Below are positions 10,801 through 48,666 of a stretch of DNA of 58,575 nt, piece by piece (within the stretch, counting starts at the first letter, position 1; each line of letters starts with the position of its first letter). Location: IMG/VR virus record IMGVR_UViG_3300031669_000031, positions 1 through 58,575 of that record; one strand, 5' to 3'. The position numbers and the translations under genes were made by a program. The stretch is from a virus. The notes under the pieces are model-generated. The model ran no database searches, was not told the origin of the DNA, and saw only the letters and a program-made list of their open reading frames with translations.

Positions 10801-10820
10801 ATTGTCGAACATTTGATAAA

Positions 10821-10895
10821 TCCGAACGAAAAAGAATTGGAAGGGGCGTTCGGTTCCCCTTATCAGCAAGTAGCTAATCTTGCCTATCCAATTCC
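10821..10895 (-). ncRNA. Pseudoknotted RNA leader of the HNH-AP2 gene
   Basis: Between the metallo-hydrolase stop (10920) and the HNH start (10800), the minus strand can form a three-way junction: P1 GAATTGG/CCAATTC (10894-10888 with 10840-10834), P2 GCAAG/CTTGC (10883-10879 with 10870-10866) and P3 AAGGGG/CCCCTT (10861-10856 with 10846-10841). The P3 loop contains CCGAACG (10853-10847), which is perfectly complementary to CGTTCGG (10828-10822) downstream of P1, giving a 7-bp pseudoknot. No known RNA family is recognised. It probably controls or processes the HNH message. Confidence 0.6.
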
Positions 10896-10919
10896 AAAGG
10901 TATAAAGAATTATCCATCT

Positions 10920-11660
10920 TTAATACGGTAGATGATTAAAATCAATCGTCAGTTCTTTGTCTGCTGCAATGGTAGTTTTGCAGAATTCGCCAGAGATCTC
11001 TGTAACGAATCGGGCTTCATCCGAATTTGCAGAACTTAAATGGAGAAGCACAATGTTCATTACATTTGATAAGTCCAAAGAGCGAAGTATATTTTTGGCT
11101 GTCTCCAATTCTAAATGTGTATAAAGCAATCGAGGTCTCATAACAGGGCTTAATCTGCCATTAATAATATTGTTTTCAAGAATCGAATCTTCGTAATTCA
11201 CTTCCAGGAGGATCTGATTAAGGTTCTTAAAAGTATATGGAACCGTATAGGTATCTGTGACAAAGAGTATATTTCCGGAAGAAGGATGATTAATGTGAAA
11301 ACCTAAGCAATAACAATCATGTTCAACTTCAAATCCAATAATTTTAAAGTTTCCCATCTTGTATCCTTTTTCGGGAATGACAACTTTTGCCCGGAAATGG
11401 GAGATTGGAATATTGTGAGAAGCAAACACATCTTCACTTGATAATACCCTGATTCCCGCAGCCATAACGTCTTTAATGCTTTTAGAATGATCCCTATGCC
11501 TATGAGTTGATAAAGCCCCCACTACTTTAGCTATGTTATAATTCAATGCCTTCTTAATTTGATTAAAGGGGACACCGCATTCTACTATAAGTGCTTCATC
11601 TCCTGCATCTAAAATGTAACAATTACCGACTGATCCCGATGAAACTATTTTAAGAACCAT
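10920..11660 (-). CDS. Metallo-beta-lactamase-fold hydrolase
   Basis: A 246-residue protein with the metal-binding motif THRHRDH (H53, H55, D57, H58), an N-terminal SSGSVGNCYIL strand and a downstream FVTDT (metal-binding aspartate), as in the YycJ/RNase Z-like branch of the MBL fold. In Bacteroidetes phages such proteins accompany RecT-type recombinases and may act as nucleases. Here it sits between RecT and the zinc-ribbon protein, flanked by two homing endonucleases. The substrate is not known. Confidence 0.8.
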   Translation of the reverse strand: MVLKIVSSGSVGNCYILDAGDEALIVECGVPFNQIKKALNYNIAKVVGALSTHRHRDHSKSIKDVMAAGIRVLSSEDVFASHNIPISHFRAKVVIPEKGYKMGNFKIIGFEVEHDCYCLGFHINHPSSGNILFVTDTYTVPYTFKNLNQILLEVNYEDSILENNIINGRLSPVMRPRLLYTHLELETAKNILRSLDLSNVMNIVLLHLSSANSDEARFVTEISGEFCKTTIAADKELTIDFNHLPY

Positions 11661-11663
11661 GAT

Positions 11664-12215
11664 TTAGTCATTAGTAAATTTCCATTTATATCCATAAGCT
11701 GATTTGCGCCAACCGCGACAACAGGCATATACGTTTCTAAAGTCAAAACCAAGAGCCTGCTGAATAGAACGAGAATTATCCCACTTACATAAAAACTCTC
11801 CAGATAGCAATAGTTGATTTATCTCTCTTGATTTTGGATTATCTTTGCCAACCCTTCCCGTCATTGTTCCGGGTTGCCCAAGCACCCTGTGTTTATGGGT
11901 CTCGTTCTCTGACTTAGTGGCCCATTCTAAGTTGGTTACATAATTATTACTTTTAACCCCATCTTTATGGTTGGTTGCATACTTATTTTCAGGATTAGGT
12001 ATAAATGTAAGTGCTATTAATCTATTAACTCTATAAAGTTTTGGTTTGTCATTACAAAGATGAAGAATTAGATAACCTTGTTTTTGTTTAGATTGTTTAA
12101 GAATGCGACTATGAGATGAATTTCTAAATCTTAATGACTTAATTCGACCCTTTGTTGAAGCCTGGTACCTTCCGTTAAATCCCGGAATCTCTTTCCATAT
12201 TTCCTGTTTCTCCAT
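11664..12215 (-). CDS. NUMOD4-HNH homing endonuclease with NUMOD1-like tail
   Basis: A 183-residue enzyme. NUMOD4 is at the start (EIWKEIPGFNGRYQAS, then GRIKSL), the HNH core at about residues 60-105 (VNRLIALTFIPNP, NHKDGVKSNNYVTNLEWAT), and a NUMOD1-like repeat at the end (SIQQALGFDFRNVYACCRG, ending YKWKF). The start at 12215 or the ATG six bases upstream leaves the preceding 140 bases as a structured leader; an in-frame extension to 12317 would be coincidental. It is inserted between RecT and the MBL-fold gene. Confidence 0.85.
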   Translation of the reverse strand: MEKQEIWKEIPGFNGRYQASTKGRIKSLRFRNSSHSRILKQSKQKQGYLILHLCNDKPKLYRVNRLIALTFIPNPENKYATNHKDGVKSNNYVTNLEWATKSENETHKHRVLGQPGTMTGRVGKDNPKSREINQLLLSGEFLCKWDNSRSIQQALGFDFRNVYACCRGWRKSAYGYKWKFTND

Positions 12216-12230
12216 TGCATTAAATAATAA

Positions 12231-12333
12231 AGCCCCTACGGTAGAAGGCTTATCGGTCATACCTTGCGGGATGATCGCAACTACTTTCAGGGCGTTAATA
12301 TTTCTTTTTTTGGTCATGATATAACCGATAAGC
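12231..12333 (-). ncRNA. Pseudoknotted RNA leader of the NUMOD4-HNH gene
   Basis: Read leftward, GCTTATCGGTTAT (12333-12321) pairs with ATGACCGATAAGC (12260-12248), 13 pairs with a single G-T wobble. Between them GTAG (12284-12281) pairs with CTAC (12244-12241), GCCCT (12293-12289) pairs with GGGGC (12236-12232), and TTGCG/CGCAA (12280-12276 with 12268-12264) makes a local hairpin. The order A, B, hairpin, A', B' is a pseudoknot. The element fills the gap between RecT and the HNH start. No family is recognised. Confidence 0.55.
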
Positions 12334-17876: not shown

Positions 17877-17959
17877 GCTTTAATTGGTTTACATTACTCC
17901 CGGGGACTCGCACCCCGGCTCCTCTGTATTTCTGCGGACTTGTCACCGCCAATTAAAGC
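17877..17959 (-). other. Structured intergenic element closed by an 11-bp inverted repeat
   Basis: The gap between two early genes is closed by GCTTTAATTGG (17877-17887) and CCAATTAAAGC (17949-17959), perfect complements. Inside are a 6-bp hairpin CCGGGG/CCCCGG (17900-17905 with 17913-17918) around a seven-base loop and a 4-bp hairpin GCGG/CCGC (17934-17937 with 17946-17949). On the minus strand the 6-bp hairpin with loop TGCGAGT resembles a tRNA T arm and is preceded by GAGGAGC, as in the minihelix at 8518-8562. It begins right after a stop codon. Confidence 0.45.
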
Positions 17960-25222: not shown

Positions 25223-28200
25223 ATGACAGTCGATGATGTAGTTAAAGATAAGCCAGCTACTAAACAGAAGGTCTATATTCCTTCATATAAAGAGATGAAG
25301 GAAAAGGCAGAGGCACTATCCATGAAGGGAGAGCCTGATGTTATTGGCCCATATGCCAAGCAAACCGAAGAAGCAAGGCTGAAAGAAGAACAGTGGCAAC
25401 AGAAAAACGCATTTCAGAAGTTCGGGGCAGGTGCAAAAGCCGGAGGATTAGGTATGGCATCCGGGGTGGAATCATTCATTGGAGAGATGCTTCCATTACT
25501 GAGTTCAGCTTCAGGTATGGCAGGATGGCAGCCAGATGCATATATAGCCAGTAAGGTACTTCAAAACAAAGCCAGAGAGACACTTGCCAATCGAAAAGAA
25601 ATATACGGTCATGGAACTATGTTCGAATTTGGAACAATGGCTCCGCTACTTGCAGGTATTGTCGCATCAGGAGGCGCAGGAGTAGCAGGGGCAGGTCTGG
25701 CAGCCTCACTTATCGGAGAGGGAACACTGGTTGCAATGACAATGGATGTATATGGAAACTCAATACTCGAGCAGGAACTATACCAGGAGGAAACAGGAAA
25801 AGAGATCAGTGAATTACAGAAGCAGGCAGTAGCACTCGCATCAGCGGCAGCCATGCTTGTTGCCGGGAAGGTTGTAGGAAGTGGTGTGAAAGGAGTCAAT
25901 AAGATCCTTGGGGAATCCATATCAGCAACTCTTAAAGAATCCCCGGATATTGCAACTAACATTCTCAGGCGATATATCGCAGATACCCCGGCAGCAGTAC
26001 AGAAAATAGGCAGGCTGGCATGGGAGACATCAAAAGAAGCCGGGAAATCAGGTTTAATATTTGGCGCAATGACAACAGCGCAGGATATACTTGCCAACCT
26101 GAATAAATACCCTGAAGATCGCCTGCTATTTGAAGAAGTAGTTACAAATACTCTCCAATCAATCAAGATGGGAGGCATGTTAGGTGCATTCCTTGGACCA
26201 TTTGCCGCAGGACAAAGTGAAGTGTATCACTATATGAGGCGCAAAAAATCAGGGTTTAATATCATTCAGACAAAGGACGGACAGACATACGAGAAAGTAA
26301 GCGACCATCCCCTTGACCCTACAAAGGTAACGGTACTTGACCGGAAGATGAACATCAAAGATATCAACCGGGAGGATATTGTGGATCAGGTATCGATGAC
26401 TGCACCGGAGAAAGAACAACTACTCGATGCATGGAAAACAAATCAGGATGCACTGCCGGAGATTGAGAAAGCTATCCTTACCAACAATACCAGACGAGTA
26501 CTTACCGACCTGACTAACAGGGTTGCAGAGATACATCCCAAGACAGGACAGCCGGTATCAGTTAATATGATGACTGATAAGGATGGCAATGGCTATTTCC
26601 GTAAGGTCACAAAGGAAATGGGTGACGGTACCTATGCCATGATGAGCAAGATTGAGCGCAGTCCTGATGGCTCTATGACGGTCAACGACATAATGGTCAA
26701 GATACTTGATCGGGAAGGCAATCCTGCTAATGGCTGGCGAACAGATAAGACATTGACACCTGAGGAGTTTATTCAGATGGGAGTCGATGCATACAGGGGA
26801 AAGAAAGGCTGGATTCCGGGAGTACCAGGTCAGGAACCAATAGTTGATGCAAAGACAGGCGAGCCAGTGGACCCTGTTATAAGACAAGCAAATCAGGATG
26901 CAGCCAATAAAGTTGCCAAGGTAGGTGATGAGATCAAATACATGGGCCGGGATTGGGAAGTGCAGGAGGTAGGATTCGATGGAAGTATCAAGATAACAGG
27001 ACTTAAAGACGGTGAGTACACAGGTGAGGAAATGAGCATCCCTCCTGAAAAGATATCAGAGGTCAATAAGGATATCAAAGAGCCTGAGGTTGAAATGGTC
27101 AAGGTTGACGGAGTAGAACAGGCCGCACACCAGGGACCACCTTCATATGAGAAAGACGGTAATTCCGTATCAAAAGGTTATATCAGGGGAGCCATCCGCA
27201 CAGCAAAGTCACCAAAGGACTTATACGGTCTGAAATGGGAGAATGACGAGGAGCTCAATCAGATGTATAAAGCCAAGTTCCCTGAAATGGTGCAAACCTA
27301 CATGATCGGAAAGGATGAAGTGGAGAGGGATGAAGTACTTGGAGCTATCAACCATGCATCAGATCCGGCAGGCCTGACAGATATCAAGATCAATCTTGAC
27401 ACCGAATTGCAGGGAATGCTCGATGCTAAGCTGGCATCATTGGGAGTAGTGCCTGAGGTTGCCCCTGTTGAGGGGGAGACAGTTACGGAGAAAGGCTCCG
27501 AAAAGCCCCAAAAAGCCCCGGAGAAAAAACCGGCACCCGAGAAGGAGATTACACAAGCACCGTCGAAGCCAGCGCCTGAAGAGAAAAAGCCAGCTATAGA
27601 TCAGGAAGGGTTAAAATCAAGACATCAAACATTTGCTAACTGGTTTGAATTACAATATCCTCAATACAAAAATGATTATAAACTAAATACATTTGTTGAT
27701 GGTGATGTTTATATTCATGTTCCGGGAACCGCTATTCATATAAAAGAATCTGAAATGCCTGATGAGGATTTGATGAATAAGCGATTGAAAAATAAAAATA
27801 TTACAGAGAAAGAAAGATTAGAAATTCAAAATGAATTAAATCTACTAAATCAAGCTAAAGAGGTCGGACAGCCGGAGACAGAAGTAGTTAGTGGGTCGGG
27901 TAAAACTGATATTGGTGAATTTACAGTTGAGTCTTTGAATAAAAGAGCAATTCAGTATGGTCTTATAAGTAGGGATAGAGGGACTGATGTGATTGATATA
28001 ATTCTAAATGGAATGGAGACGGGACTTGCTCCAGACATAGCGAAGATACCTAAGAAAGAATGGGATCAATTACGATTAGATGCCTTTGATATAAGAAATA
28101 ATTTATCAAGAAGAATTGAAGGAAAGGAAACAGCACCGGCAGAAGCCCCTGCCTCAACCAAGCCGGAGAAAGCGCCTGAAGTAGTTGAAGGAGGGCGCAA

Positions 28201-31200
28201 GACCGCAGACAAGATCAGCACAGAGCTCACAGAGGCCGGTAATGAAGTTGAGCCAAGACCAACAGAAGCACAGATAGAGGCTGGCAATTATCCGAAAGGG
28301 CATATCTCAATACTTGGAATGAATATATCCATTGAGACAGCAGCAGGGGGGATAAGATCAGGCACTGATCCCTCAGGAAAGAAGTGGAGTATTATGATGA
28401 ACCATGATTACGGTCACATTCTTGGCACTGTATCTACTGATGGAGAGCCGGTTGATGTATTCATTGGGAAGATTGAACCGGGGCAGAAGGTGTATATTAT
28501 TTCTCAGCTAAAACCAGAAACAGGAGAATTCGATGAACTGAAAATAATGCTCGGATTTAATTCTGAATTTGATGCCAGAGCAGGATATCTCTCTAACTAT
28601 GAACCAGGATGGAAGGGATTAGGTGAAATTACAACCATGAGGTTATTAGACTTTAAAGAAATTGTCTTTACAAAGAACCGAACTCAAAGACCTATAGCTA
28701 CAGCAGGATGGAAGGAGATTGATGGCAAATATATCAACAAGGAGTGGTTATCTAACGAAAAGACTTATGGCAAGGCAGAGCCAATCGTATCAACCGAAGG
28801 AATAACTTCTCCTGGCATCGACATAACAAAGAAAGAGTTTGCTGTACTGGATATAACAAAGGGCCTTAAATCAGCATATCGCAGACAGTATCTTGATAAG
28901 TTGGGCATTGATGAGGCTGAATATGCTGCTATTAAAGAAAGCCTGTATAAGAAAAAGTTATTGCTTGCTAATGGAGGAATTGAAGGAATAGGCCGGGCAG
29001 TAGTAGCAGGATTATACAAGAGAGCAGGAGGGAACGCTATTAGTGGCGATGCTTATAGAGATCCTAACAGTAAAGTATGGAAATTATGGGACACACAACT
29101 TAAAACTGATGAGCAAGGACAAACTGAAAAACCGATTCAACCAGACATTACTCCAGAGGGCGAATTCGCAGGGGATATCGTACCAGGAGGCACAGAAACA
29201 GGCATTGGAGGAACTGAAGCGCAAGGTGAGCCAGAACCTGCAAAACCACAATTCGCAGGGGAAAAGGTAAAGTACACTCCCTTTGATGAATGGGACAAAA
29301 GCCTGATCAAAGCCCGGGACTATGCAAGGCACATCTTCTCTACAGAGGAGCTTGATGCATTGCAGGCATCCGGTGATCTTGTATGGAATAATACTGAGAG
29401 TATCGTTAGTGTTATCAATAAGAAGCTTAGCGAGGTTGAGCCGGAAGTTACTGTAGAGAAGCCCAAGCCTGCATTTGCCGGGGAAGTAGTAACGGTCAAA
29501 AAAGAAACTAAGAGTGTTGTCACAAAGAAACTTGATAAACAATCAGCAATCAAAGAGGATAAGATATTTAAGGAGCAGAAGAATCAGTTACTCGATGACT
29601 TGATTGCCGCAGAAGACTTACTGTTGGGGAGTAATAAAGAGAAAGTCCGTACTAAAGAACAAGAATTAAGGAAAGAGCCTGAGATAGATGAAAGTACTGT
29701 TGATGGTTACATAGTGAGTGAATATGAATACAAACTTGATTCTCTCCCTAAAAAAATCGAAGCTAAGTTAAATAAGCTCGGAATAAAGGTTAATGACGGC
29801 AAATTAATTATTGATATCTACAAGGATGGCACTGTAGAGGTTGGCGATATTCGGACAGCATTGAGAATAGTTGACAAGGGATTTCCGACACGGTTAAAGG
29901 AAAAAAAATACACTACCGGGCCGGGGAAGATTGGTAAATCACAGTATTGGGATAAAGCTGTATCATATGGCAGTTTAAAGGAGTCTGAGAGGCGTGTGGC
30001 CCTGGCAGAGGAGAACTTATCAAATGCAGTTAAAAATGGCAACAAGGGCCTTCAGAAAGTCATGGAGGAGCAATTAGCCGAAGTCAGAGCTATTCATGAA
30101 GTAGCAAAGAATGTTGACTATGAAAGATTAGCAAAGCAGGATAAGATTAATGCAGACGTAGAATTCAATGCCTTATGGGAAAAGAATGCTCAACAATACG
30201 ATTTTGATAATGTTCGAAAAGAAGAATTATTTGATATTCTTGAAAAAGAAGGTCGCCCCACTGAACTTACTTATGAATCAGTACAGCCATTGGTACTAAG
30301 GACACATCTGGTGAAAGAGGAAAAAACTGTTAAGGAGAAGATTATAGAGAGTAATACTAAATTACATGAGCTGAATCTGGAATTATCTGAAAAGTTTTCT
30401 CGCAAAGATGGTAAGGGTTTGAAGTTACCTAAAACACAATCAGAGACATTTACTTTAAGATCGCTACAAAATCAGATAAGGCATCTCGAACATGAAATTG
30501 CTGATCTGAAAAGATATGAACCTGAAATAAATAAACTGAGCGAAGAGCCAGCTGTACCAAAAGAGGAGAAACCTGTTACAGAAGCCCTGAAGGTAGAGAC
30601 ACCTGTAAAAGAACTCCCCACAACAAAGGATAAGATAAAGTTCACAAGAGGAGGAAGGGAATGGACGGCTGATGTTGAGCATGTATTTCCTGATGGCAAG
30701 GTGCAGGTAGATGTGTTTGGGAGGAAGATTGTCAATCCGGGAGAATACATTATTGTCGGAAAAGAAATGCCTGTAGATGGGATTATCTTTAAAAACAAGG
30801 TTTATAAATCTATGGATCAGGTTCTCGAGGCCATAGACAAAGGGGAAATAGGATTTGATGAGTCTAAGCAGTTACGAGAGGATATAAGCAAGGTTGAAGA
30901 TATTCCTAAAGTACAAGGCCCGGTTCCGGAGTTTGCAGGTAATGCAGTTGAGCCTAATCCTATTGCGGAGATCCAGGAATTACCCCCTGCAGAAAAAGAA
31001 GATGAACCCACTATCGAAAGAGAAGTTGAGCAGCTTGAGGATCCGGAAGATGCGCCTGAAGATAAGCCAATGACAGAGAAAGATGCTAAAGATGAGAAAG
31101 TTGATTTCGATGAGGCTGATCAGATTATTGAAAAGGTTGGGCCAATAACAGACTTCGGGGAGAAGATCGGGGGAGCAAGAAAAGATGAAGCAGAATCAGG

Positions 31201-34200
31201 ATTCACGAGAGGCTCAAAAGAGAAGAAAGAGAAAGTTCCTGCATGGATGTCAGGATTCACTATACTCACCGAATTGGACAAATTTCGTCCAATAAAAGCT
31301 CATGGTCAGTTTATAATATGGAAATCTAAAGATGTATTTGATAGTGAAGCAGAGGCTATAGACCGCATCAAGCTGGTAGTAGTCGGGAGTAAGTTTAAAA
31401 TAGGCAAGGTAGGCGAGAAGGGTGATGACACTTATCATGTTTACCGTAGAGTAACAGATCGTAAGAGATATTCACTTAAAGGAGGATTTGCTGATGAGAA
31501 GGAGGCAATGAAATGGCTGATCGAAAATCAGGAGTACCTACTCAACTACAAACCATCTTTCCCTGTCAGACCGCACATTGAGAATCTTGAAAGAACAGGA
31601 ACTGTATATAGGCCAAATAATGAGAATATCACTACTGATCAATTCAGAGAAACATTTGGATTCACCGGTGGGGAGTTTGGTAATTGGGTGCCGCAGGATG
31701 AGAGACAGCGTATATTGAACATGGCATACGATGGCCTAATGGATCTTGCAAGGGTGCTTAATGTACCTCCAAGAGCATTATCATTGAATGGTCAGCTATC
31801 CATTGCCTTTGGCAAAAGAGGGCAGGGGTTGCAAGGAGCCTCAGCACATTATGAGCCAGCAAGAGCAGTATTTAATCTTACAAGGATGAAGGGAGCCGGA
31901 GCCGTTGCACATGAATGGTTCCATACACTTGATCATTATTTTGGAAGACTTGCGGAAGGGTTGCCGGGAGAAAAGACCCCGGGAGAGCAGTACGAAAAAA
32001 GAGGAATATTCCTTTCAGATACTGTAAATTATCGAATGAAAGGAGTAAGAGATGAACTAAAGAATTCATTTAATACATTACTTGAAGGGATATTTAAACA
32101 GCCAAAAATCATTGAAGTCTCAATTGAGCATTATGCCAAGACAGTAAAGAGATATGAAGATAATCTCAATTATTACCTTACAGGAGCCAGGCAGTCAATA
32201 GAGAGAGGTAAATGGTATGGTAATAAAACAAAACCAGGAGCTACCCCGGAACAGCTAAAACAATGGGATGATCTTGCGGCAAAGATTCAGGCAGGAGATT
32301 ATGGAGAACCAGTCCAGTATGAAACGAAAGAGAAAGGATGGAAGGGGTCAGTCGTTACAAGAGATAGTTTTACAAACATCATTGCATTAGATGAGATCGC
32401 AAAAAAGGTTCTCGGAAGAAGTTTTCTGACCAAGAATAGTAATTTAGCTACAGTAAGTCAAACAGCAAGGTTTACCATAGGCGCAAAGGAGCAACTTGCA
32501 AGATATGAGATTGATAACAAAGAAGAGCGAGACACTCCAACAAGATTCTACTATGATGCTAAAGACCTTGATAAGTTGAGAGTATCGGATTACTGGACCA
32601 CGAATCCCGAAATGCTGGCAAGGGCATTCGAGGCATTCGTTGAGGATCAGATATCAAAAAGGGGGAATGTAAGCCAGTATCTTGTTCACAGCACCGATAA
32701 TGAGAATTACAAAGACCCATTATTTGGCGATCAAAGGCCATATCCGGAAGCCGCAGAAAGAGAGAAATTTAATGAGTTATTCCAGAAGTTTTTCGATGTA
32801 ATGATGTCCGAGGAGAAAGGTGGTAAAACAATATTATACAAGAGAGATGTCCCTCCTATTTGGGACAATCCCAACTACCCGAAGTATAATTTTGAAAACA
32901 AAGGTTGGGCCGGTGACGAATTGGATGTAATGTTCGAACATGAGATGATGCGCAGGGCAAGAATAATGACAGATCATACCGGGGTACCTATTATTGTGGT
33001 CAGGACAAAAAATGATCTTCCTGAAAGAATTAAAGCGGATATGATCAGGCGATTCGGAAAGGTTGAAGATGCCGGAGTCCCTGCATTGTATGACAAGGTT
33101 ACAAATACTGTATATGCAGTACTTGAAGATACCAGGACAATAACAAATTTTGTCAGTAATATGGCTCATGAGATTATTGCTCATCATGGATTGCCTGCAC
33201 TGCTTGGAAATGAAGCTTACATAAATGTATTGCAGCTTACATATAGAGGTATGTCTCCGGTTGATATCATCAATATATCAGAGAATTGGAACGTCCCTGA
33301 GAGCGATTGGAAAACTATTGCAGAGGAATATATCGGGGAGATGGCTGGTAATGGACAGATGAATCCTAATCTTTGGCAGAGAATACTTTCTAAGATCCGG
33401 GAATGGATAAGGAAACTATTCAATATATCCATGTCCAAGGCAGAGATAATGAACCTGCTTCGTAAGTCCAGGGAAAACCTGCAGAAAAATAAGCCAGAGT
33501 ATCAAAATGCAGGGGAATACCTTGATGCCCTTACAGCCTATACAGCAAAACCGGAGCAGGCTAAAGGTAAATTCGGATATGGCATTCATGTTGGAGAGGC
33601 CAAGGTTATAACTGAATCCGTAAGCAAGGGGAATCTTGACTACCGGACATATTTTACCGTTGCTGAAAGTGTAATAGGAGAAAAACCCTCCGGATGGATT
33701 GAAAAAGCATTGATAAGCAGTAATTTTAATTACGAGGAGGCACTTGATTACCTTGATACAAAGATGGTCCAGTATTTTAAATCCGGGAAACAATATGATA
33801 TGGTCAGAGCAGCTCGTAATTACCTTGAATCATCACCTCCTAAGAATCCTGAAGGTCTATACAAGGTGCTTGTAGGTAAAGGCAAGTCGCCAGAGGAGCT
33901 TAACTTTCTCTCATGGGAGGATTCTGTTGAGCTAAACCAACAGGAAAGTATAATGAATCAACTGGATATTGAAGGTAAGTATGATTATTCAATACAAAAT
34001 GCTTTTAAATCCGGGAAGGATCTTTATAATAAGGCTGTTAAAATATTTGGTAGCGACAGAGAAGCTTCATTATTCTTATCCCGGGCAGGCATTGACGGCA
34101 TGGCTCATTCTGAAAGCAATCTTGGACCATTTGGCACTACTCATGGAGATAAGCAGTATGTTATCTATGACAATACTCCGGTTGAGATTATTAATGAGAT

Positions 34201-37183
34201 TAGGTATAAAAGGTCTCAGAAACCAAAATTTGTTGGGGATCATCTTACTACTGCAGGTGAACGATATACTGACAAGTCTATAACAAAACGTAACTGGTCT
34301 GAAACAATGCAGGGGATAAGGGAATACTTCCAGGATATGGTTCTTCCTGTCAGGCGTTTTGAGGAAGAAATAATTAGAAGGGGAGGATTGCAGCCTAACG
34401 ATGCCAAGCCATATAGGGATATAAGCTTGTCGTTTGGCAGACAGGAAACGCTCTATAAGGATTTTCTTAATACTAAAATGAATCCTGTAAAACAGACAAT
34501 AACAAAGATTACAAAAACAGGCATGCCAGTTGAAAATGTTTTACCATACATTATCAGTAAGCATGCAATAGAGAGAAATATGGTATTTCGTGCCAGAGAA
34601 CTTGAGGAATTTGAGAATAGGCCAACACCCAATGATCCTACTCAGGACGAGATAGATGAATTTATGGATTCTATTGCTGATAAGGATTATTCCGGAGTAA
34701 TGGCATTTGATGTTAATAATGAATTTACAAATCCTGATGTGCTTGCTCAGACTATAGTGGATGAATTTGAAGCAGCAGTTCCTAAATCGCTCACAGATGA
34801 ATTATGGAACAATACTCGAAATGCCTCATCCGAGATACTCAGTATATGGGAGGCAGGGCAACAGATATCGCCAGAGCAAAAACAGGAATATCTTGATAGG
34901 TTCAAATATTTTGTTCCTCTCAGAGGATGGAGGGATGGAGCTGGAGCAGATTTAGTATATACAAAGGGAGAAGGATTCAGTAAATCCCTTATGCATGCAG
35001 AAGGCAGAAAGTCACTCGCAGAGAACCCCCTGGCTTATATGCTAAGTACAACCTTTCAAGCTATTGGAGAGCAGGTTGATAATGAGGTTAAAACATCAAT
35101 GCTGAATCTTCTTATGCGTAACCTGACAGGAGCTTCTTTATACGATCTGGCAACTGTTAAAAAATTGTATTACGTGAGGATTGATCTGCCTGATGGAACG
35201 TATGAATACGAGCCAACAATAGAACGTCCTGCCCCTGATTTATGGGATGAGCCTGGCAGAGTAACTACAAGAATATACCGGGAACACCAGAAATTAAGAT
35301 CTCCAAAACAAACAAGAGAACATGAGGTAACGGTACGCAGGCGAGCCGGGGATGTAGTGATGGTATTTAAAGGAAAAATGTTGCCGGTTGCGCAGAGCAT
35401 GAATAAGAGAAATTTCATGTATCATAATATTTTTGGTCAGGTAAAGGATGCCAGGATAATGAATAAAGCATTCACAGGACTTTCTCATGTGAATAACTTC
35501 CTAAAAGCAACTTATACTTCATTCAATATAGTTTTCCCATTAACTAACTTCATGCGTGACCTGCAGGAAGCCTCTATTACTCAGCTCATCAAAGGAGAGG
35601 CAGGTCATAAAGTTATTGTTAATTATCATAGGTCATTCCCTTCCATAATACGGTTCCTCAGAGGGAAGCTTGATATGAATAATCCTGATGATGTTAAACT
35701 CCGGGATTTCTATATGACAGGAGGAGCAACAGGATTTACACATCTCAAATCTGCAGAGGATCTTGAAAAAGAACTTATGTCTGAGATAAATCGTATGATT
35801 GGCAGAGGTACGGTAAGAGGAGAAATAAAACATTATGCGAAGCAGGTAGTCGAGATCATATCAATGTGGAATCAGGTATTTGAGGATGCAACAAGATTCT
35901 CTGTTTATCTTACTTCTATTGACCTTGGCAAATCAAAAGAAGATGCAGCCTCTGATGCAAAAGAAGCCTCTATAAACTTTAACCGGAAAGGAAAATCGAG
36001 CAAGTTTTATGATTCTATTTATGCATTCTGGAATGTAGCCCTGCAGAGTCTTCAGAAAAACTTCAAATTGTTTAAAGATTATTCAAAAGCATTCGGGGCA
36101 GTTGCCGCATCATTCATGGCTTTTGGATTTTTGGAAGCATTAATGAATCATGCAACAGATGACGAGGACCCTGAGAATGACTATTACAATATTAATCCCT
36201 GGATGAGAGAGAATTATCTTATCCTGCCAAACCTACCAAAGATTATATCAGGGGAATCGAAAGGCGATAAATATCTCAGCATTCCACTTCCTCAGTTTTG
36301 GAGAGGATTCAAGAGTATTGGTTCGTTAGCTTATGATCTTACCCAGGATAAGGTAACTGTAGGGAAAGCAATTAGCCAGTCCCTGCTGAATTTCGGAGCT
36401 TCTTTATCACCTGTTGACCCCGGGGGATTCGTCAGGGATGGAGAATTTAGCTTAGCGCCAATGGTACCTACAGTATTTAAACCATTCTATGAGATTGCAA
36501 CAAATCATAATTACATGGGTTATACTATAGCAAGGGAGCCATTTGATAAAGCACAGAAGAAATTATTAGCTAATGCTCGCTTAGGAAAAGATAACGTCAA
36601 TCCTGCAGCTAAGTTTTTTACGGATATGTTATTCCGTTGGGGAGGAGGCGATAATGCCTCAAAATATTATATTTCTAAGTCAGGAGAGGAAAAGAAAGTA
36701 CCGGGGTTCCTTGATATTAACCCTTCATTTATTGAGCATCTGTTTAAAGGTTATACGGGGGGGACTGGTATGGTATTTTCAGATCTGATTACTACTATAT
36801 CACAAGTTTTGAAGTCAGATGAAGAGATTAACTTCAAGAATGTTCCCTTTGTTAACCGGTTTATAAGACAAACACCGGAGGAAAAATGGAACATAATCTC
36901 TGAATATTATAACCTGAAAGATGTTGTTGCAATCCATAAAGGGCTCAAAAGGCAATATACCAAGCAGGCTGAGGCCGGTGGCGATACTTCACAGATTGAG
37001 AAAACCGAAGGATCGGGTTATTATGAATCTTATCAAAGCATCCTCGACAATTATGATAATGATATATCAGAAATGTCAAAAGAAATTGATTTTTCGGATA
37101 TTGAGGGGAGTGTGCAAATTTACGAACTAATGAAACAATGCATTAACGATATTGATTCACTTAAAAAAGAATTTAATAAGTAA
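25223..37183 (+). CDS. Giant polyvalent virion protein (3986 aa): InPase-like, LPD1, zincin, ART and LPD38-like domains
   Basis: One frame encodes 3986 residues. In order: hydrophobic glycine/alanine-rich segments (about 70-200) that could cross a membrane; proline/lysine linkers; an inorganic-pyrophosphatase-like domain (about 1025-1150, MMNHDYGHILGT, EPVDVFIG); coiled-coil parts; LPD1 (about 2150-2300, LSLNGQLSIAFGKRGQG, with HEWFH at 2230-2234); a second zincin-like HEIIAHHG near 2649; an ADP-ribosyltransferase-like domain (about 2860-2985, GLYKV to FLSRAGIDGM and YVIYD); and a long LPD38-like C-terminus. These are domains of phage polyvalent proteins, which are thought to be injected with DNA and to disarm the host. 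Domain borders are estimates. Confidence 0.85.
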   Translation: MTVDDVVKDKPATKQKVYIPSYKEMKEKAEALSMKGEPDVIGPYAKQTEEARLKEEQWQQKNAFQKFGAGAKAGGLGMASGVESFIGEMLPLLSSASGMAGWQPDAYIASKVLQNKARETLANRKEIYGHGTMFEFGTMAPLLAGIVASGGAGVAGAGLAASLIGEGTLVAMTMDVYGNSILEQELYQEETGKEISELQKQAVALASAAAMLVAGKVVGSGVKGVNKILGESISATLKESPDIATNILRRYIADTPAAVQKIGRLAWETSKEAGKSGLIFGAMTTAQDILANLNKYPEDRLLFEEVVTNTLQSIKMGGMLGAFLGPFAAGQSEVYHYMRRKKSGFNIIQTKDGQTYEKVSDHPLDPTKVTVLDRKMNIKDINREDIVDQVSMTAPEKEQLLDAWKTNQDALPEIEKAILTNNTRRVLTDLTNRVAEIHPKTGQPVSVNMMTDKDGNGYFRKVTKEMGDGTYAMMSKIERSPDGSMTVNDIMVKILDREGNPANGWRTDKTLTPEEFIQMGVDAYRGKKGWIPGVPGQEPIVDAKTGEPVDPVIRQANQDAANKVAKVGDEIKYMGRDWEVQEVGFDGSIKITGLKDGEYTGEEMSIPPEKISEVNKDIKEPEVEMVKVDGVEQAAHQGPPSYEKDGNSVSKGYIRGAIRTAKSPKDLYGLKWENDEELNQMYKAKFPEMVQTYMIGKDEVERDEVLGAINHASDPAGLTDIKINLDTELQGMLDAKLASLGVVPEVAPVEGETVTEKGSEKPQKAPEKKPAPEKEITQAPSKPAPEEKKPAIDQEGLKSRHQTFANWFELQYPQYKNDYKLNTFVDGDVYIHVPGTAIHIKESEMPDEDLMNKRLKNKNITEKERLEIQNELNLLNQAKEVGQPETEVVSGSGKTDIGEFTVESLNKRAIQYGLISRDRGTDVIDIILNGMETGLAPDIAKIPKKEWDQLRLDAFDIRNNLSRRIEGKETAPAEAPASTKPEKAPEVVEGGRKTADKISTELTEAGNEVEPRPTEAQIEAGNYPKGHISILGMNISIETAAGGIRSGTDPSGKKWSIMMNHDYGHILGTVSTDGEPVDVFIGKIEPGQKVYIISQLKPETGEFDELKIMLGFNSEFDARAGYLSNYEPGWKGLGEITTMRLLDFKEIVFTKNRTQRPIATAGWKEIDGKYINKEWLSNEKTYGKAEPIVSTEGITSPGIDITKKEFAVLDITKGLKSAYRRQYLDKLGIDEAEYAAIKESLYKKKLLLANGGIEGIGRAVVAGLYKRAGGNAISGDAYRDPNSKVWKLWDTQLKTDEQGQTEKPIQPDITPEGEFAGDIVPGGTETGIGGTEAQGEPEPAKPQFAGEKVKYTPFDEWDKSLIKARDYARHIFSTEELDALQASGDLVWNNTESIVSVINKKLSEVEPEVTVEKPKPAFAGEVVTVKKETKSVVTKKLDKQSAIKEDKIFKEQKNQLLDDLIAAEDLLLGSNKEKVRTKEQELRKEPEIDESTVDGYIVSEYEYKLDSLPKKIEAKLNKLGIKVNDGKLIIDIYKDGTVEVGDIRTALRIVDKGFPTRLKEKKYTTGPGKIGKSQYWDKAVSYGSLKESERRVALAEENLSNAVKNGNKGLQKVMEEQLAEVRAIHEVAKNVDYERLAKQDKINADVEFNALWEKNAQQYDFDNVRKEELFDILEKEGRPTELTYESVQPLVLRTHLVKEEKTVKEKIIESNTKLHELNLELSEKFSRKDGKGLKLPKTQSETFTLRSLQNQIRHLEHEIADLKRYEPEINKLSEEPAVPKEEKPVTEALKVETPVKELPTTKDKIKFTRGGREWTADVEHVFPDGKVQVDVFGRKIVNPGEYIIVGKEMPVDGIIFKNKVYKSMDQVLEAIDKGEIGFDESKQLREDISKVEDIPKVQGPVPEFAGNAVEPNPIAEIQELPPAEKEDEPTIEREVEQLEDPEDAPEDKPMTEKDAKDEKVDFDEADQIIEKVGPITDFGEKIGGARKDEAESGFTRGSKEKKEKVPAWMSGFTILTELDKFRPIKAHGQFIIWKSKDVFDSEAEAIDRIKLVVVGSKFKIGKVGEKGDDTYHVYRRVTDRKRYSLKGGFADEKEAMKWLIENQEYLLNYKPSFPVRPHIENLERTGTVYRPNNENITTDQFRETFGFTGGEFGNWVPQDERQRILNMAYDGLMDLARVLNVPPRALSLNGQLSIAFGKRGQGLQGASAHYEPARAVFNLTRMKGAGAVAHEWFHTLDHYFGRLAEGLPGEKTPGEQYEKRGIFLSDTVNYRMKGVRDELKNSFNTLLEGIFKQPKIIEVSIEHYAKTVKRYEDNLNYYLTGARQSIERGKWYGNKTKPGATPEQLKQWDDLAAKIQAGDYGEPVQYETKEKGWKGSVVTRDSFTNIIALDEIAKKVLGRSFLTKNSNLATVSQTARFTIGAKEQLARYEIDNKEERDTPTRFYYDAKDLDKLRVSDYWTTNPEMLARAFEAFVEDQISKRGNVSQYLVHSTDNENYKDPLFGDQRPYPEAAEREKFNELFQKFFDVMMSEEKGGKTILYKRDVPPIWDNPNYPKYNFENKGWAGDELDVMFEHEMMRRARIMTDHTGVPIIVVRTKNDLPERIKADMIRRFGKVEDAGVPALYDKVTNTVYAVLEDTRTITNFVSNMAHEIIAHHGLPALLGNEAYINVLQLTYRGMSPVDIINISENWNVPESDWKTIAEEYIGEMAGNGQMNPNLWQRILSKIREWIRKLFNISMSKAEIMNLLRKSRENLQKNKPEYQNAGEYLDALTAYTAKPEQAKGKFGYGIHVGEAKVITESVSKGNLDYRTYFTVAESVIGEKPSGWIEKALISSNFNYEEALDYLDTKMVQYFKSGKQYDMVRAARNYLESSPPKNPEGLYKVLVGKGKSPEELNFLSWEDSVELNQQESIMNQLDIEGKYDYSIQNAFKSGKDLYNKAVKIFGSDREASLFLSRAGIDGMAHSESNLGPFGTTHGDKQYVIYDNTPVEIINEIRYKRSQKPKFVGDHLTTAGERYTDKSITKRNWSETMQGIREYFQDMVLPVRRFEEEIIRRGGLQPNDAKPYRDISLSFGRQETLYKDFLNTKMNPVKQTITKITKTGMPVENVLPYIISKHAIERNMVFRARELEEFENRPTPNDPTQDEIDEFMDSIADKDYSGVMAFDVNNEFTNPDVLAQTIVDEFEAAVPKSLTDELWNNTRNASSEILSIWEAGQQISPEQKQEYLDRFKYFVPLRGWRDGAGADLVYTKGEGFSKSLMHAEGRKSLAENPLAYMLSTTFQAIGEQVDNEVKTSMLNLLMRNLTGASLYDLATVKKLYYVRIDLPDGTYEYEPTIERPAPDLWDEPGRVTTRIYREHQKLRSPKQTREHEVTVRRRAGDVVMVFKGKMLPVAQSMNKRNFMYHNIFGQVKDARIMNKAFTGLSHVNNFLKATYTSFNIVFPLTNFMRDLQEASITQLIKGEAGHKVIVNYHRSFPSIIRFLRGKLDMNNPDDVKLRDFYMTGGATGFTHLKSAEDLEKELMSEINRMIGRGTVRGEIKHYAKQVVEIISMWNQVFEDATRFSVYLTSIDLGKSKEDAASDAKEASINFNRKGKSSKFYDSIYAFWNVALQSLQKNFKLFKDYSKAFGAVAASFMAFGFLEALMNHATDDEDPENDYYNINPWMRENYLILPNLPKIISGESKGDKYLSIPLPQFWRGFKSIGSLAYDLTQDKVTVGKAISQSLLNFGASLSPVDPGGFVRDGEFSLAPMVPTVFKPFYEIATNHNYMGYTIAREPFDKAQKKLLANARLGKDNVNPAAKFFTDMLFRWGGGDNASKYYISKSGEEKKVPGFLDINPSFIEHLFKGYTGGTGMVFSDLITTISQVLKSDEEINFKNVPFVNRFIRQTPEEKWNIISEYYNLKDVVAIHKGLKRQYTKQAEAGGDTSQIEKTEGSGYYESYQSILDNYDNDISEMSKEIDFSDIEGSVQIYELMKQCINDIDSLKKEFNK

Positions 37184-40705: not shown

Positions 40706-40737
40706 TTTGTTTTTGTCATAATAGTATTTTACCTTTG
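40706..40737 (+). promoter_or_regulatory. Strong Bacteroidetes-type promoter
   Basis: TTTG (40706-40709), 20 bases, then TACCTTTG (40730-40737), an exact match to the Bacteroidetes consensus. The predicted start is near 40744. It could drive a 68-base transcript ending at the terminator 40784-40811, and by read-through the tRNA, structured RNA and HNH gene. Confidence 0.6.
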
Positions 40738-40783
40738 GTATGCACTTTTTTCATGGTACATAGGTTTAGTTATTAGTTAATGG

Positions 40784-40811
40784 AAGGCAGCTCAGAAATG
40801 GGCTGCTTTTT
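40784..40811 (+). terminator. Rho-independent terminator
   Basis: AAGGCAGC (40784-40791) pairs with GCTGCTTT (40802-40809) around a 10-base loop, followed by further Ts. It ends the virion operon and could also end a short RNA starting near 40744. Confidence 0.7.
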
Positions 40812-40833
40812 AAAAGTTCTTTAAAAATCTTAT

Positions 40834-40906
40834 TGCATCGTAGAGCAGAGGCCAGCTCGTTAGGCTCATAACCTAAAGGTCACAGGTTCGAATCCTGTCG
40901 ATGCTA
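40834..40906 (+). tRNA. tRNA-Met (CAT anticodon)
   Basis: All four arms are present: acceptor GCATCG/CGATGC (40835-40840 with 40899-40904), D stem GAGC/GCTC, anticodon stem TTAGG/CCTAA around CTCATAA with anticodon CAT (40867-40869), a 5-base variable loop, and T arm ACAGG/CCTGT around TTCGAAT. The 3' end continues ACAA, so CCA is not encoded. The first acceptor pair is T-T, a mismatch. The anticodon stem lacks the three G-C pairs of initiator tRNA, so it is elongator Met or a lysidine-modified Ile tRNA. Confidence 0.92.
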
Positions 40907-40923
40907 CAAACAACCCGAGAGAA

Positions 40924-41095
40924 AGGACTCTGAAAGTATCAAGTAATTATCCCAATTACAAGATATTTTCCGGTGGGATGAATGCAAAAACGGAATAGGA
41001 GTCCTGAAGAAATCAATACTGTGCTGGCAGTAACAATTAATATAAACCTATTAGGGAGTAAGGGCCAGCACCCCGAAACCTAATAGGTATTTTTT
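40924..41095 (+). ncRNA. Large structured RNA: kissing-loop junction plus pseudoknotted terminator
   Basis: Domain 1 is closed by AGGACTC/GAGTCCT (40924-40930 with 40999-41005) and holds GTAATT/AATTAC (40943-40948 with 40954-40959) and TTCCG/CGGAA (40968-40972 with 40991-40995). Loop ATCCC (40949-40953) is complementary to GGGAT (40975-40979) in the other loop. Domain 2: GTGCTGGC (41021-41028) pairs with GCCAGCAC (41064-41071), and ACCTATTAGG (41046-41055) with CCTAATAGGT (41079-41088); the stems interlock as a pseudoknot. Six Ts (41090-41095) then run into the HNH start codon. This looks like an attenuator or riboswitch-like leader, or a stand-alone RNA. No known family is recognised. Confidence 0.7.
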
Positions 41096-41605
41096 ATGAA
41101 AGAGATTAAACTAAGCCAACGAGGAAAAAACAAAGATAAATTTGTTGCATTGGTAGATGATGAAGATTTTGAATACCTTAATCAATGGAACTGGTGTGCA
41201 GCAAAGAATGGGAATACTTATTATGTTCAAAGAAGCATAAGAACTAAAGATAAGATAATAACAGTAAAAATGCATCGTGTGATTATGAACACTCCTAATG
41301 GAATAAAAACAGATCACAGAGATCGGAATGGGTTGCATTGTGAGAGGCATAATTTGAGGAACTGTACTAATGCTCAAAATGGAGCAAACAGACAATCATG
41401 GGGGAGATCGAAATATCTTGGCGTAACTTATCAGAATGGAAAAATTAAAGCCCAAATTCAAACGAATGGAAAGACAACTCATTTAGGATATTATAAAACT
41501 GAAGAATTGGCAGCAAAAGCTTATGACACAAAAGCGCAGGAGTTATTCGGAGAATTCGCTAATTTGAATTTTAAGGAGCCTTTTTTAAATAAGGCAGCAG
41601 TGTGA
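41096..41605 (+). CDS. HNH homing endonuclease with AP2 DNA-binding domain
   Basis: A 169-residue enzyme related along its whole length to the protein at 10318-10800. HNH core: KMHRVIMNTP, then TDHRDRNGLHCERHNLRNCT (around residues 60-93). AP2 domain: SKYLGVTYQNGK to GEFANLNFKEP. Its ATG directly follows the T-run of a pseudoknotted terminator, so its expression is probably controlled at that RNA. The last 35 bases overlap, tail to tail, the leftward gene at 41571. Confidence 0.9.
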   Translation: MKEIKLSQRGKNKDKFVALVDDEDFEYLNQWNWCAAKNGNTYYVQRSIRTKDKIITVKMHRVIMNTPNGIKTDHRDRNGLHCERHNLRNCTNAQNGANRQSWGRSKYLGVTYQNGKIKAQIQTNGKTTHLGYYKTEELAAKAYDTKAQELFGEFANLNFKEPFLNKAAV

Positions 41606-45558: not shown

Positions 45559-48500
45559 TTATCCAAAACTCGCTTCCGAAATTATAATATTTTTGTTTGT
45601 CGTAAATGGTTTACTTACTACAGGCAGTGGAAGATATTTTAAACTCATCCAAACCACCCCGGCTGTAGTAATCGCCACATCATCATGGCATCCATCCACT
45701 GCTCCGATAGTGCCATCAATTTTATATTCAAGAGTGTCCATTTCGTCACACGCTTTATCCCATTTCTCAACATAGAGGTTATCCCTGAGTGCTGCATTAA
45801 GTGTATTTATAATAAGAGACTTAGTTCCTGAATTAGTATGAAATCCATACTTTATAGGTACTTTCATTCTGATCTTTTCAGGGTCTGTCCTTGAAAACAT
45901 ATTAGTATAATACGGAGCAATCTCATCAAGTATAGTTATGAAGTGATCTCCCTCTGTAGATTTTTTTGTTCTCAGTGAATTTGTCTCTATTGCAAGCAGG
46001 GCAATACCATAAAACATGCCAAGCTGTGCTGATATCCATGCAAAGATGTCCTGGTCGCAGTTATGAACAACGTAACAAGCTGTTGAGTATGAATTATCTT
46101 CTTCAACTTCTAAATTATACACGAACCCCGAATACGGCTGACTTGTTTTTGTTTTGACCTTATAGGCTATATTATTTGCATCTTGAAGTAAGGAATACTT
46201 CTTGATTTCCGATACAGTCCATACTATATTGTATCTTGGCCTTTTGCTTTTTATATAGCTATTTTTAGTTTTTGCAATTACCCTGTATATTCCAGGGCGG
46301 TATCCCAGCAATATTAGAATATCCCTTATCTGTCTCGCAAGAATGGGAGATACTGTTGATGCCGAATGTGTTATTGTTTGATCTGTATTGTATGTAGAAC
46401 CATCCCCCTTCCAGTAGCTTTCCAGTAACTCGGATAATAATTCTTTTGAGGATTCTAAAACGACTGAACTTATCTTTTTCTCCCATGAGTGCTCTCCACA
46501 TAATTCAAGAACAAGCGATGCAAGGTGAGTATCACAAACTCTCACCCTGCAAACTCCGACATCCTTATATTCTATGATAGAGCTTTTAAACCCAAGTTTT
46601 AAAAGTTTTTCATAACAGTCTTTTGCTACAGTTTCTCTTTCATAATATGAAAATGAGAAATATACACCATAAGGTTTTTTATTCTTACCCTTATGGTTTA
46701 TATGGCCCTCGGCTAAATAATAACCAAGAATAGAATAAAAGACTTTCAGGTCTGTTATTTCACGAACTGTATCTTTCGACTTACCTCCATTATATTTATT
46801 GATAATGAATGAAGGATTAAATTCTACTCTATTTTTAGAATATGCAATGTATTGTAAATTATTAGCTTCAATCCATTTAGGGTCTCCAATACATTCTTTT
46901 TTATTGTATTGATAACGATTTCTCCAAGGTACTCTTTCAATTTTATTTACAACATTATTGCTGTAAAACGGATGTTCAGGAGTACAGGTAACTGTTTCGT
47001 AATTTCCTTGCGATCTTATTGAAATGACTTCTCCACTATAGTTATTTTTATATGTTTTGATGACTTTTTTGAATCTGTTTTTATGTGTCCATACAAGATC
47101 GCCTACCTTAACATCTTTAATTTGCTTAAATCCATCAGATGTATATATCAGTGTGTCAGGGACAAAGCAATGGCCCCACCAGGTAGCAACAATCTCAGGT
47201 CTGCCTCCATCCATCATCCAGTATCGATCTATAACCCTTAGGCAAGAATAGTCAGCAAGAATAGTCCTTCCTCCAACGTCCCCAAAGATAGCATACCTAT
47301 CAGTGATATCTTCTGTTATATCCGGCATACTCCATATAAGCAGATTCCCTCTTGGATTTTCAAGAAACTTTATATTCTTCAGGCTATCGGGGCCAACCTG
47401 TGCATCTCCTTTTAATTCTCCGACATAGACAGGTTTCACGCAACCATTGCGCATGTTAAGTACATATTCTGGTGAAAATACCCTTCTTCCTGTTGAGGCG
47501 AATGCTTCTTTATCGTTACTTGGAAAATCTTCATTCATCCTCCATGTATCGTAGTTCTCTCCTATCTTAGTATCAAAATACCATTTGATACCTTCCAGGG
47601 TAGCTCCTATGCTCCAAAGATATTTTGCATAGCCTGTAGTTTCCGCAAGCATCCATTCAATGAACTTAGGTAAATCATTCTCTTTTATTGTTTTCTGATA
47701 TCTCTCTATCTCAAACCATGCGACAAATACAGGATCATACGAGCTCTCTCCTTTTTTTGCAGCCTGCCATTCCCTGTGAAAAGCATTGCCTACACCTTTA
47801 GCTGTGGATTCAAGGACTATAATAGAGTCAGGTGCATTGGGGACTGTTGACCGGAGATTCTGCAGAAGATCTTCCGTTGACCGCTGTGGAGTTGATTTGA
47901 ACTTCCCAAGCTCCGAAACATGAAGCATTGCGAAGTCATAAGATGCAAGGCTTTCCGGCTTCTGTGCAGAGCCAACTCCAACAATACAATTTCTCTCTTT
48001 GATCATCTTAGTCTTGCTGGACCCTTCATATGGCACGAATGTTATTGTTCCGAACTGTTGCGGATATAACCTTCCGAGCCTCCGGTACATACCTCTTATG
48101 TTTCTGGCCTGATCATCTACATCAGCAATGATAGCAGAATGCCAGTTGGTTTTTAGTACTCGCTGAATCCATGCCATATATATTTGAACGAGAGTCGATC
48201 CTCCCCATTGGCGAGCTTTAAGAAGTACAATCCTGATCGGCACTCCTTCGGTACGCATTTTTTCAAGACGGCTAAGTAATTTTCTTTGAGCCCTGTTAAG
48301 GATGAATGGGATCTCCTGCTTGGTTACCTTATCCTGAATCTTCGCACATACAAAGGCCCAAAATTCAAAGTCATAATCAAATCGTTTCTTACTTAAATCG
48401 TTTATGATAGCCTGAGTTGTAAGAAAATCATTTGTCCCTACAGCCTTTTCTACCGATCCCTCATCTCTTATCTTTTGGAGTATTGGCAGATCATCGAACA

Positions 48501-48666
48501 TTTGTTTTGGGAAGTAGATAGAATAATTAACGTCTGCATGGGAAAAATCTACTTTGATTCGCTTTAAAGGAGAACCTAACCCGGTTGCAGGGTTATAGGG
48601 AGTATTCAATTTATCCCTACGAATCTTGTTTTCAGCAAGGATCTTATCTAATTGATCACTTGGCAT
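45559..48666 (-). CDS. terL: Large terminase subunit (TerL) interrupted by an intein
   Basis: A 1035-residue precursor. The terminase part has a Walker A-like KARQWGGST (residues 150-158), Walker B FAMLHVSE (245-252, E252) and the RNase H-like nuclease acids D463 (FGDVGG), E894 (AIETNS) and D995/D996 (CHDDVAI). Residues 500-869 are an intein; splicing would leave a 665-residue terminase. The enzyme cuts concatemers and drives DNA into the prohead through the portal. It follows a small HTH gene with an 11-base overlap. Confidence 0.92.
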   Translation of the reverse strand: MPSDQLDKILAENKIRRDKLNTPYNPATGLGSPLKRIKVDFSHADVNYSIYFPKQMFDDLPILQKIRDEGSVEKAVGTNDFLTTQAIINDLSKKRFDYDFEFWAFVCAKIQDKVTKQEIPFILNRAQRKLLSRLEKMRTEGVPIRIVLLKARQWGGSTLVQIYMAWIQRVLKTNWHSAIIADVDDQARNIRGMYRRLGRLYPQQFGTITFVPYEGSSKTKMIKERNCIVGVGSAQKPESLASYDFAMLHVSELGKFKSTPQRSTEDLLQNLRSTVPNAPDSIIVLESTAKGVGNAFHREWQAAKKGESSYDPVFVAWFEIERYQKTIKENDLPKFIEWMLAETTGYAKYLWSIGATLEGIKWYFDTKIGENYDTWRMNEDFPSNDKEAFASTGRRVFSPEYVLNMRNGCVKPVYVGELKGDAQVGPDSLKNIKFLENPRGNLLIWSMPDITEDITDRYAIFGDVGGRTILADYSCLRVIDRYWMMDGGRPEIVATWWGHCFVPDTLIYTSDGFKQIKDVKVGDLVWTHKNRFKKVIKTYKNNYSGEVISIRSQGNYETVTCTPEHPFYSNNVVNKIERVPWRNRYQYNKKECIGDPKWIEANNLQYIAYSKNRVEFNPSFIINKYNGGKSKDTVREITDLKVFYSILGYYLAEGHINHKGKNKKPYGVYFSFSYYERETVAKDCYEKLLKLGFKSSIIEYKDVGVCRVRVCDTHLASLVLELCGEHSWEKKISSVVLESSKELLSELLESYWKGDGSTYNTDQTITHSASTVSPILARQIRDILILLGYRPGIYRVIAKTKNSYIKSKRPRYNIVWTVSEIKKYSLLQDANNIAYKVKTKTSQPYSGFVYNLEVEEDNSYSTACYVVHNCDQDIFAWISAQLGMFYGIALLAIETNSLRTKKSTEGDHFITILDEIAPYYTNMFSRTDPEKIRMKVPIKYGFHTNSGTKSLIINTLNAALRDNLYVEKWDKACDEMDTLEYKIDGTIGAVDGCHDDVAITTAGVVWMSLKYLPLPVVSKPFTTNKNIIISEASFG
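46060..47169 (-). mobile_element. Intein with LAGLIDADG endonuclease domain in TerL
   Basis: 370 residues from Cys500 to Asn869. Splicing blocks are visible: block A CFVPDTLIYTSDGFK, block B TVTCTPEHPFYS, block F/G YSGFVYNLEVEED and CYVVHN, followed by the +1 cysteine of the extein. The endonuclease domain has two LAGLIDADG-type motifs, ILGYYLAEG (646-654) and LLESYWKGDG (747-756). The site lies in the terminase nuclease domain, between the first and second metal-binding acids. The DNA is more AT-rich than the flanking terminase. Confidence 0.9.

Follow-up and report, generated by a model that had tools for sequence, protein, structure and literature searches.

A probable leader RNA with kissing loops upstream of a phage homing endonuclease gene belongs to a wider group of pseudoknotted leaders

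The RNA encoded at positions 40924-41095 of the phage sequence analyzed here is not unique: it represents one of a number of leader-RNA classes found upstream of homing endonuclease genes (HEGs). Several sequence-unrelated classes of pseudoknotted HEG leader exist; the arrangement seen here departs significantly from chance, has a defined geometry relative to the start codon, and recurs before HEGs of different families. The leading reading of the element is that of a cis-acting attenuator. On balance, we regard it as the 5′ leader of the HNH/AP2 HEG that follows it, a pseudoknotted leader that would limit expression of this gene by transcription termination combined with occlusion of the start site. 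The analyzed DNA, called the window, is the whole 58,575-nt stretch of the virus record IMGVR_UViG_3300031669_000031 from IMG/VR.

The leader RNA is immediately preceded by tRNA-Met (CAT) at 40834-40907 (+), recognized by ARAGORN and by Rfam RF00005, and is followed by the gene of a 169-aa free-standing homing endonuclease of the HNH/AP2 type (41096-41605, +). Relatives of this protein are up to 61% identical across its whole length, and its homologs match Pfam HNH_3 and AP2. The portal protein of the phage is nearest, among cultured phages, to those of Bacteroides phages (about 39-40% identity); it has no relatives in IMG/VR, and hence there was no near-identical phage in which covariation could be tested. 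When the sequence between tRNA-Met and the leader was read by eye, no recognizable promoter was seen, and TAnnTTTG is absent there. The 9-nt match of 40760-40768 with 41043-41051 was put down to chance. Before tRNA-Met, positions 40706-40815 (+) may constitute a separate small RNA unit, with a Bacteroidota-type promoter (TTTG, 20 nt, TACCTTTG at 40730-40737), a strong terminator at 40781-40812, and a very faint resemblance to FopS, an sRNA family of Bacteroidetes (E=5).

The working unit is probably the 3′ part of the RNA (41017-41095, +). Its first hairpin, UACU[GUGCUGGC]AGUA, occupies 41017-41032, and the entire 8-nt loop, GTGCTGGC (41021-41028), is complementary to GCCAGCAC (41064-41071). 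The latter segment lies inside the S2 hairpin (41046-41088, +), whose 10-bp stem is formed by ACCTATTAGG (41046-41055) and CCTAATAGGT (41079-41088), and whose interior contains a GG/CC pairing (41062-41063/41072-41073) that closes the kissing loop. One A and a run of six U residues (41090-41095, +) follow the stem and abut the ATG at 41096, which places the end of the S2 stem 7 nt from the AUG. The original prediction had listed six pairings in 40924-41095, among them these two interlocked stems of 8 and 10 bp, and a distal hairpin whose six Ts end at the HNH start codon. All six pairings are present where they were claimed, far beyond chance, and the proposed combination of kissing loops and pseudoknot was supported, the same arrangement recurring before HNH homing endonucleases.

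The 3′ pseudoknot has a stacking score of −35.25 kcal/mol, a sum without loop terms whose significance is taken from shuffles and gene controls and not from absolute energies; none of 1000 dinucleotide shuffles matched it (z = −4.3), and it outscored all 2600 85-nt windows of the contig on both strands. The nested minimum-energy fold of 191 nt gave z = −3.4, with 1 of 200 shuffles folding as well. Regarded as an intrinsic terminator, the S2 hairpin has a G+C-containing stem directly before a U-run (10-bp stem, A, U6); its loop, however, is not short but 23 nt long, partly structured, and longer than canonical, and the hairpin was not listed by a consensus terminator scan with loops of 3-8 nt. 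We propose that most, or part, of the transcripts would end at the U-run following the S2 hairpin. In read-through transcripts, the S2 stem, which would cover the ribosome-binding region because of its short distance from the AUG, would lie inside the ribosome footprint and keep endonuclease synthesis low. The original prediction had suggested a terminator that forms unless the pseudoknot is blocked. The kiss between hairpin 1 and the S2 loop, however, is nested with the terminator stem and compatible with it, so that it could equally lock the S2 hairpin, or may tune it; a signal that releases the structure may exist.

The 5′ domain (domain 1; 40924-41005, +) consists of a closing stem (40924-40931/40998-41005) around an inner pseudoknot, and none of 500 shuffles was as good. 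The closing stem had been anticipated as 7 bp (AGGACTC 40924-40930 / GAGTCCT 40999-41005) and comprises 8 bp with a U-G pair. Two inner hairpins with complementary loops had also been described, and both can be located: GTAATT 40943-40948 / AATTAC 40954-40959 with the loop ATCCC (40949-40953), and TTCCG 40968-40972 / CGGAA 40991-40995 with GGGAT (40975-40979) within the loop, the two loop segments being fully complementary. These hairpins are not the only option, since competing helices are individually stronger than their 5-bp and 6-bp stems. A 9-bp helix, P2 (40932-40940/40962-40970, GAAAGUAUC/GAUAUUUUC), clashes with the 5-bp TTCCG/CGGAA stem, and an 8-bp helix (40947-40954/40974-40981, UUAUCCCA/UGGGAUGA), which includes the ATCCC/GGGAT kiss, clashes with the 6-bp stem. 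A single-sequence model of domain 1 run against the HEG loci and the window gave no convincing homolog; a match at 4962-5046 (−) in the window was rejected, as this region reads as coding sequence.

The RNA had been described as a complex structure of no recognized family, and this was upheld in Rfam 15, where no family reached its gathering threshold for 40924-41095 and the best sub-threshold match by E-value was TEG147 (19.2 bits against a cut-off of 56.1 bits). Gathering and permissive Rfam thresholds likewise gave nothing for all three leaders of this phage, the other two of which are described below. In phage records, DNA similarity searching with the RNA matched only the tRNA. No close homolog of the RNA was found, and its own pairs are therefore without covariation support; as the sequence search yielded no relative of the RNA itself, leaders of the relatives of the HEG were examined. 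Two candidate identities were rejected: a group I intron, which gave no covariance-model match and is at odds with the intact tRNA, and HEARO, the omega RNA of IscB, for which no HEARO model match was obtained.

The survey set comprised 232 non-redundant leaders of HNH-type HEGs (HNH/AP2 and NUMOD4-HNH) from phage contigs, and the controls were 297 intergenic leaders of non-HEG genes from the same contigs. With a cut-off of z < −2.5 against each leader's own shuffles, pseudoknots were found in 73 HEG leaders (31.5%) versus 19 controls (6.4%; odds ratio 6.7, Fisher p = 3.6e-14), and about 69% of the HNH-type HEG leaders have no significant pseudoknot. Many leaders of HEG relatives carry helices interlocked in the order S1a-S2a-S1b-S2b near the start codon, with unrelated sequences. 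For 75 strong canonical cases, the median RNA start is at −96 and the median end of the last helix (S2) at −15 relative to the AUG, and the 8 nt after S2 contain a mean of 4.6 U. The exact Bacteroidota −7 box TAnnTTTG was present within the 35 nt preceding S1a for 34 of 71 strong leaders versus 7 of 284 background windows, which indicates that the HEG's own transcript often, or usually, begins with the leader RNA. The 40924-41095 element is an exception among these relatives, many of which have a visible promoter of their own.

Inspected HEGs of cultured phages, most of which follow the preceding gene closely, showed no clear pseudoknot leaders, and the classes are therefore known almost entirely from metagenomic contigs. 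For a GIY-YIG HEG, only two relatives were found. Strong leader pseudoknots also precede replication-initiator-like genes, at 7791-8489 (−) in the window and in four surveyed contigs (L029 rev 2614; L049 +3106; L091 +608; L179 +2103); the association with HEGs is thus strong but not exclusive. One contig, IMGVR_UViG_3300033150_000717, carries three HNH/AP2 HEG copies in a single phage (L050, L091, and L166), at least two of whose leaders (L050 and L166) are strongly pseudoknotted, their stems being unrelated; the leader of another HNH gene, at L050 +434, is structured as well. Leader-peptide attenuation was considered and rejected by eye: short open frames occur in some leaders, but their stops and frames are inconsistent.

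The class represented by 41017-41095, termed class K ("kissing terminator"), was captured by a descriptor that makes no use of the pseudoknot score: a hairpin in which 7 nt or more of the loop are Watson-Crick complementary to a loop enclosed by a stem of 7 bp or longer, with U-rich sequence after this stem and a homing-endonuclease start codon within 30 nt of it. This descriptor was matched by 23 of the 232 HEG leaders, by 4 of 301 controls, and by 7 of 2320 shuffled leaders. The 41017-41095 element matches it with loops complementary over 8 of 8 nt, a 10-bp stem, and U6 before the ATG, compared with none of its 2000 shuffles; its membership is architectural, as it has no sequence homolog, and it lacks the accessory promoter box seen in about half of the strong leaders. 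Clear examples are L252, L257, L262, L266, L278, L283, L226, L146, and L029, and between L262 and L266 a pair-preserving change is found in hairpin 1 (CAUUGU/ACAAUG versus CAUCGU/ACGAUG). For class K, the MAFFT alignment does not reflect structure and was left out of the pair counts.

Two further leaders were found in the same phage. The second leader RNA (10798-10896, −) was detected by the covariance model R1, trained without the window (68.2 bits, E=9.1e-10), and is assigned to class A as the sole R1 match in the window, the model giving no match at 40908-41095. It contains P1 (10895-10887/10841-10833), S2a (10853-10847) paired with S2b (10828-10822), and a third copy, GTTCG (10810-10806), near the ATG at 10800; the downstream ORF (10318-10800, −) encodes an HNH/AP2 homing endonuclease and has its own TACCTTTG box. 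The third leader (12232-12333, −) is a long-stem pseudoknot, in which a 16-bp S1 (12333-12318/12263-12248) is interlocked with S2 (GCCCU 12293-12289 / GGGGC 12236-12232). It precedes a NUMOD4-HNH homing endonuclease gene (11664-12215, −; Pfam NUMOD4 E=1e-14, HNH_3 E=9e-8), and in the pseudoknot scan of all ORF leaders of the window it ranked first, with the 41017-41095 element second. All three detected HNH-type HEGs of this phage therefore have pseudoknotted leaders, belonging to three classes. The NUMOD4-HNH HEG adjoins a metallo-beta-lactamase-like gene (10920-12215, −, for the pair), a neighborhood also present in Enterococcus and Polaribacter phages and perhaps reflecting a shared homing site.

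Class A leaders fold as a three-way junction in which GATAG is conserved, and the loop of their second hairpin pairs downstream of the junction. The 16-nt loop sequence of this class, GGGAAACCAGAACTCC, was searched in 2.9 million viral contigs blind to protein content, which gave 15 stretches, 2 due to chance and 13 genuine. At all 13 genuine places, a homing endonuclease gene begins with its ATG 56-61 nt downstream, and the endonucleases are of at least three types (HNH/AP2, NUMOD4-HNH, and a third HNH-like type); the RNA is hence a module that serves more than one endonuclease family. In ten leaders whose loop sequences are distinct, a third copy complementary to the S2a loop lies just before the AUG (mean 5.5 nt versus 2.9 in mismatched leaders, permutation p<5e-5; S2a and S2b were assigned by hand, whereas P1 and the third copy were checked by script). 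A MAFFT/RNAalifold consensus of the class misses P1 owing to one-base shifts. Among 395 Bacteroidota genomes, the class-A model matched one, the known phage-bearing assembly, and none of the other 394.

The natural reading of class A is a start-site switch in which the S2a loop pairs either with S2b or with the third copy, and the 40924-41095 element could by analogy be a purely translational switch, with S2 and its alternatives gating the start site and the U-run representing a mere A/U-rich initiation region. The covariation of the third copy with S2a fits such a mechanism, as does its overlap with the Shine-Dalgarno sequence in two class-A leaders (L041 and L102); Bacteroidota hosts rarely use Shine-Dalgarno sequences, which we count on the same side. 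The kissing and Firmicutes-type leaders, however, are U-rich and not A-rich right after S2 and lack a clear third copy, the 40924-41095 element having none, and we consider a solely translational mechanism unlikely here. In three HNH leaders with Firmicutes-type signals (L113, L096, and L101), a third copy of S1 overlaps the Shine-Dalgarno sequence, which would offer S1b the start site as a partner in place of S1a.

The position of the element after tRNA-Met raises another explanation, namely that it is an ordinary intrinsic terminator of the tRNA transcript that happens to precede the HNH gene, with the other pairings incidental. The S2 hairpin with U6 is indeed the first terminator-like element after the tRNA, and the leader has no visible promoter of its own. 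Against this, the terminator contains an 8 × 8-nt loop complementarity that was found in none of the 2000 shuffles, and the same arrangement occurs before HEGs elsewhere, no tRNA having been found in 29 of 30 HEG loci scanned; this explanation is thus rather improbable.

We also regard as improbable, to a slightly greater degree, a stand-alone or termination-released small RNA with its own function, for example as a partner of the endonuclease in a loosely HEARO/omega-like manner, with the HNH gene expressed by read-through. The RNA is compact and would have its own 3′ end, and its relatives often have their own promoter. A dedicated RNA-protein pair is nevertheless argued against by the survey, in which unrelated RNAs precede similar endonucleases and the same class precedes unrelated ones, as well as by the failure of the HEARO models to match and by the small size of the endonuclease.

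A more speculative extension of the attenuator reading, to which we assign a low probability, is that unrelated phage HEG families share swappable, self-limiting pseudoknotted leaders and that, in the kissing class, a terminated leader kisses the leaders of other copies, so that expression would fall with copy number, as in plasmid copy-number control. Such dosage sensing would explain why each element has a private complementary loop pair. Finally, a 5′-terminal mRNA stabilizer or nuclease block without regulation is very improbable: the RNA starts near the inferred transcription start in many relatives, but no transcription start is visible at the 40924-41095 RNA, and this role leaves both the U-run and the class-A third copy unexplained.

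Few selfish genes are as common in phages as those of homing endonucleases, and, to our knowledge, how free-standing HEGs avoid harming the host is known from only a few T4-like examples, via simple hairpins. HEG start sites of T4-like phages are sequestered by RNA structures, including hairpins at I-TevI, segB, and Aeh1 mobE; mobE and segF have intrinsic terminators at their 5′ ends, and about 30% of transcripts end at that of mobE (PMC2988022, PMC3014915). These systems, together with I-TevII and I-TevIII, resemble the present leaders in that a 5′ RNA structure limits phage HEG expression (PMC2988022, PMC3014915), but their hairpins are simple, whereas the leaders described here are kissing or pseudoknotted, have a defined length, and fall into several classes common to different HEG families. 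The gene 32 leader of T4, T2, and RB69, the gp32 translational operator, is likewise a pseudoknot in a phage mRNA leader that ends upstream of an A/U-rich start region, and a 2010 description calls the T4 pseudoknot perhaps the only one in viruses used for translational autoregulation (PMC3014915). That gene, however, encodes an ssDNA-binding protein which binds its own operator, while here a homing endonuclease is encoded and long stems are followed by a U-run. Like our element, HEARO/omega RNA is structured and immediately precedes an HNH nuclease gene, but our element has no Rfam HEARO match and its protein is a 169-aa HNH/AP2 homing endonuclease and not IscB. The fluoride, ZTP, and preQ1 riboswitches attenuate transcription and contain pseudoknots; they resemble the leader in that a pseudoknot and a terminator are coupled ahead of the regulated gene, whereas the kissing class has no Rfam match, conserved ligand-binding core, or known ligand.

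A full-text literature search, whose coverage leaves out most subscription journals and which is therefore not proof of novelty, gave no description of pseudoknotted or kissing HEG leaders. The frequency of pseudoknotted leaders before HNH-type HEGs suggests an undescribed way of keeping such genes quiet. Pseudoknotted leader classes that recur, are exchanged among HEG families, and occur three times in the same phage would represent a general and testable layer of control; they would also provide new Rfam families, natural kissing-loop switches, and a metagenome marker for HEGs.

Other features of the window were recorded as separate observations. A polyvalent protein ORF of 3986 aa occupies 25223-37183 (+), and the large terminase subunit gene (45559-48666, −) appears to bear an intein, as judged by eye from the translation. 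A type-P3 twister ribozyme, flanked by two small ORFs, lies at 17880-17956 (−) and scores 45.6 bits, above the Rfam gathering score.
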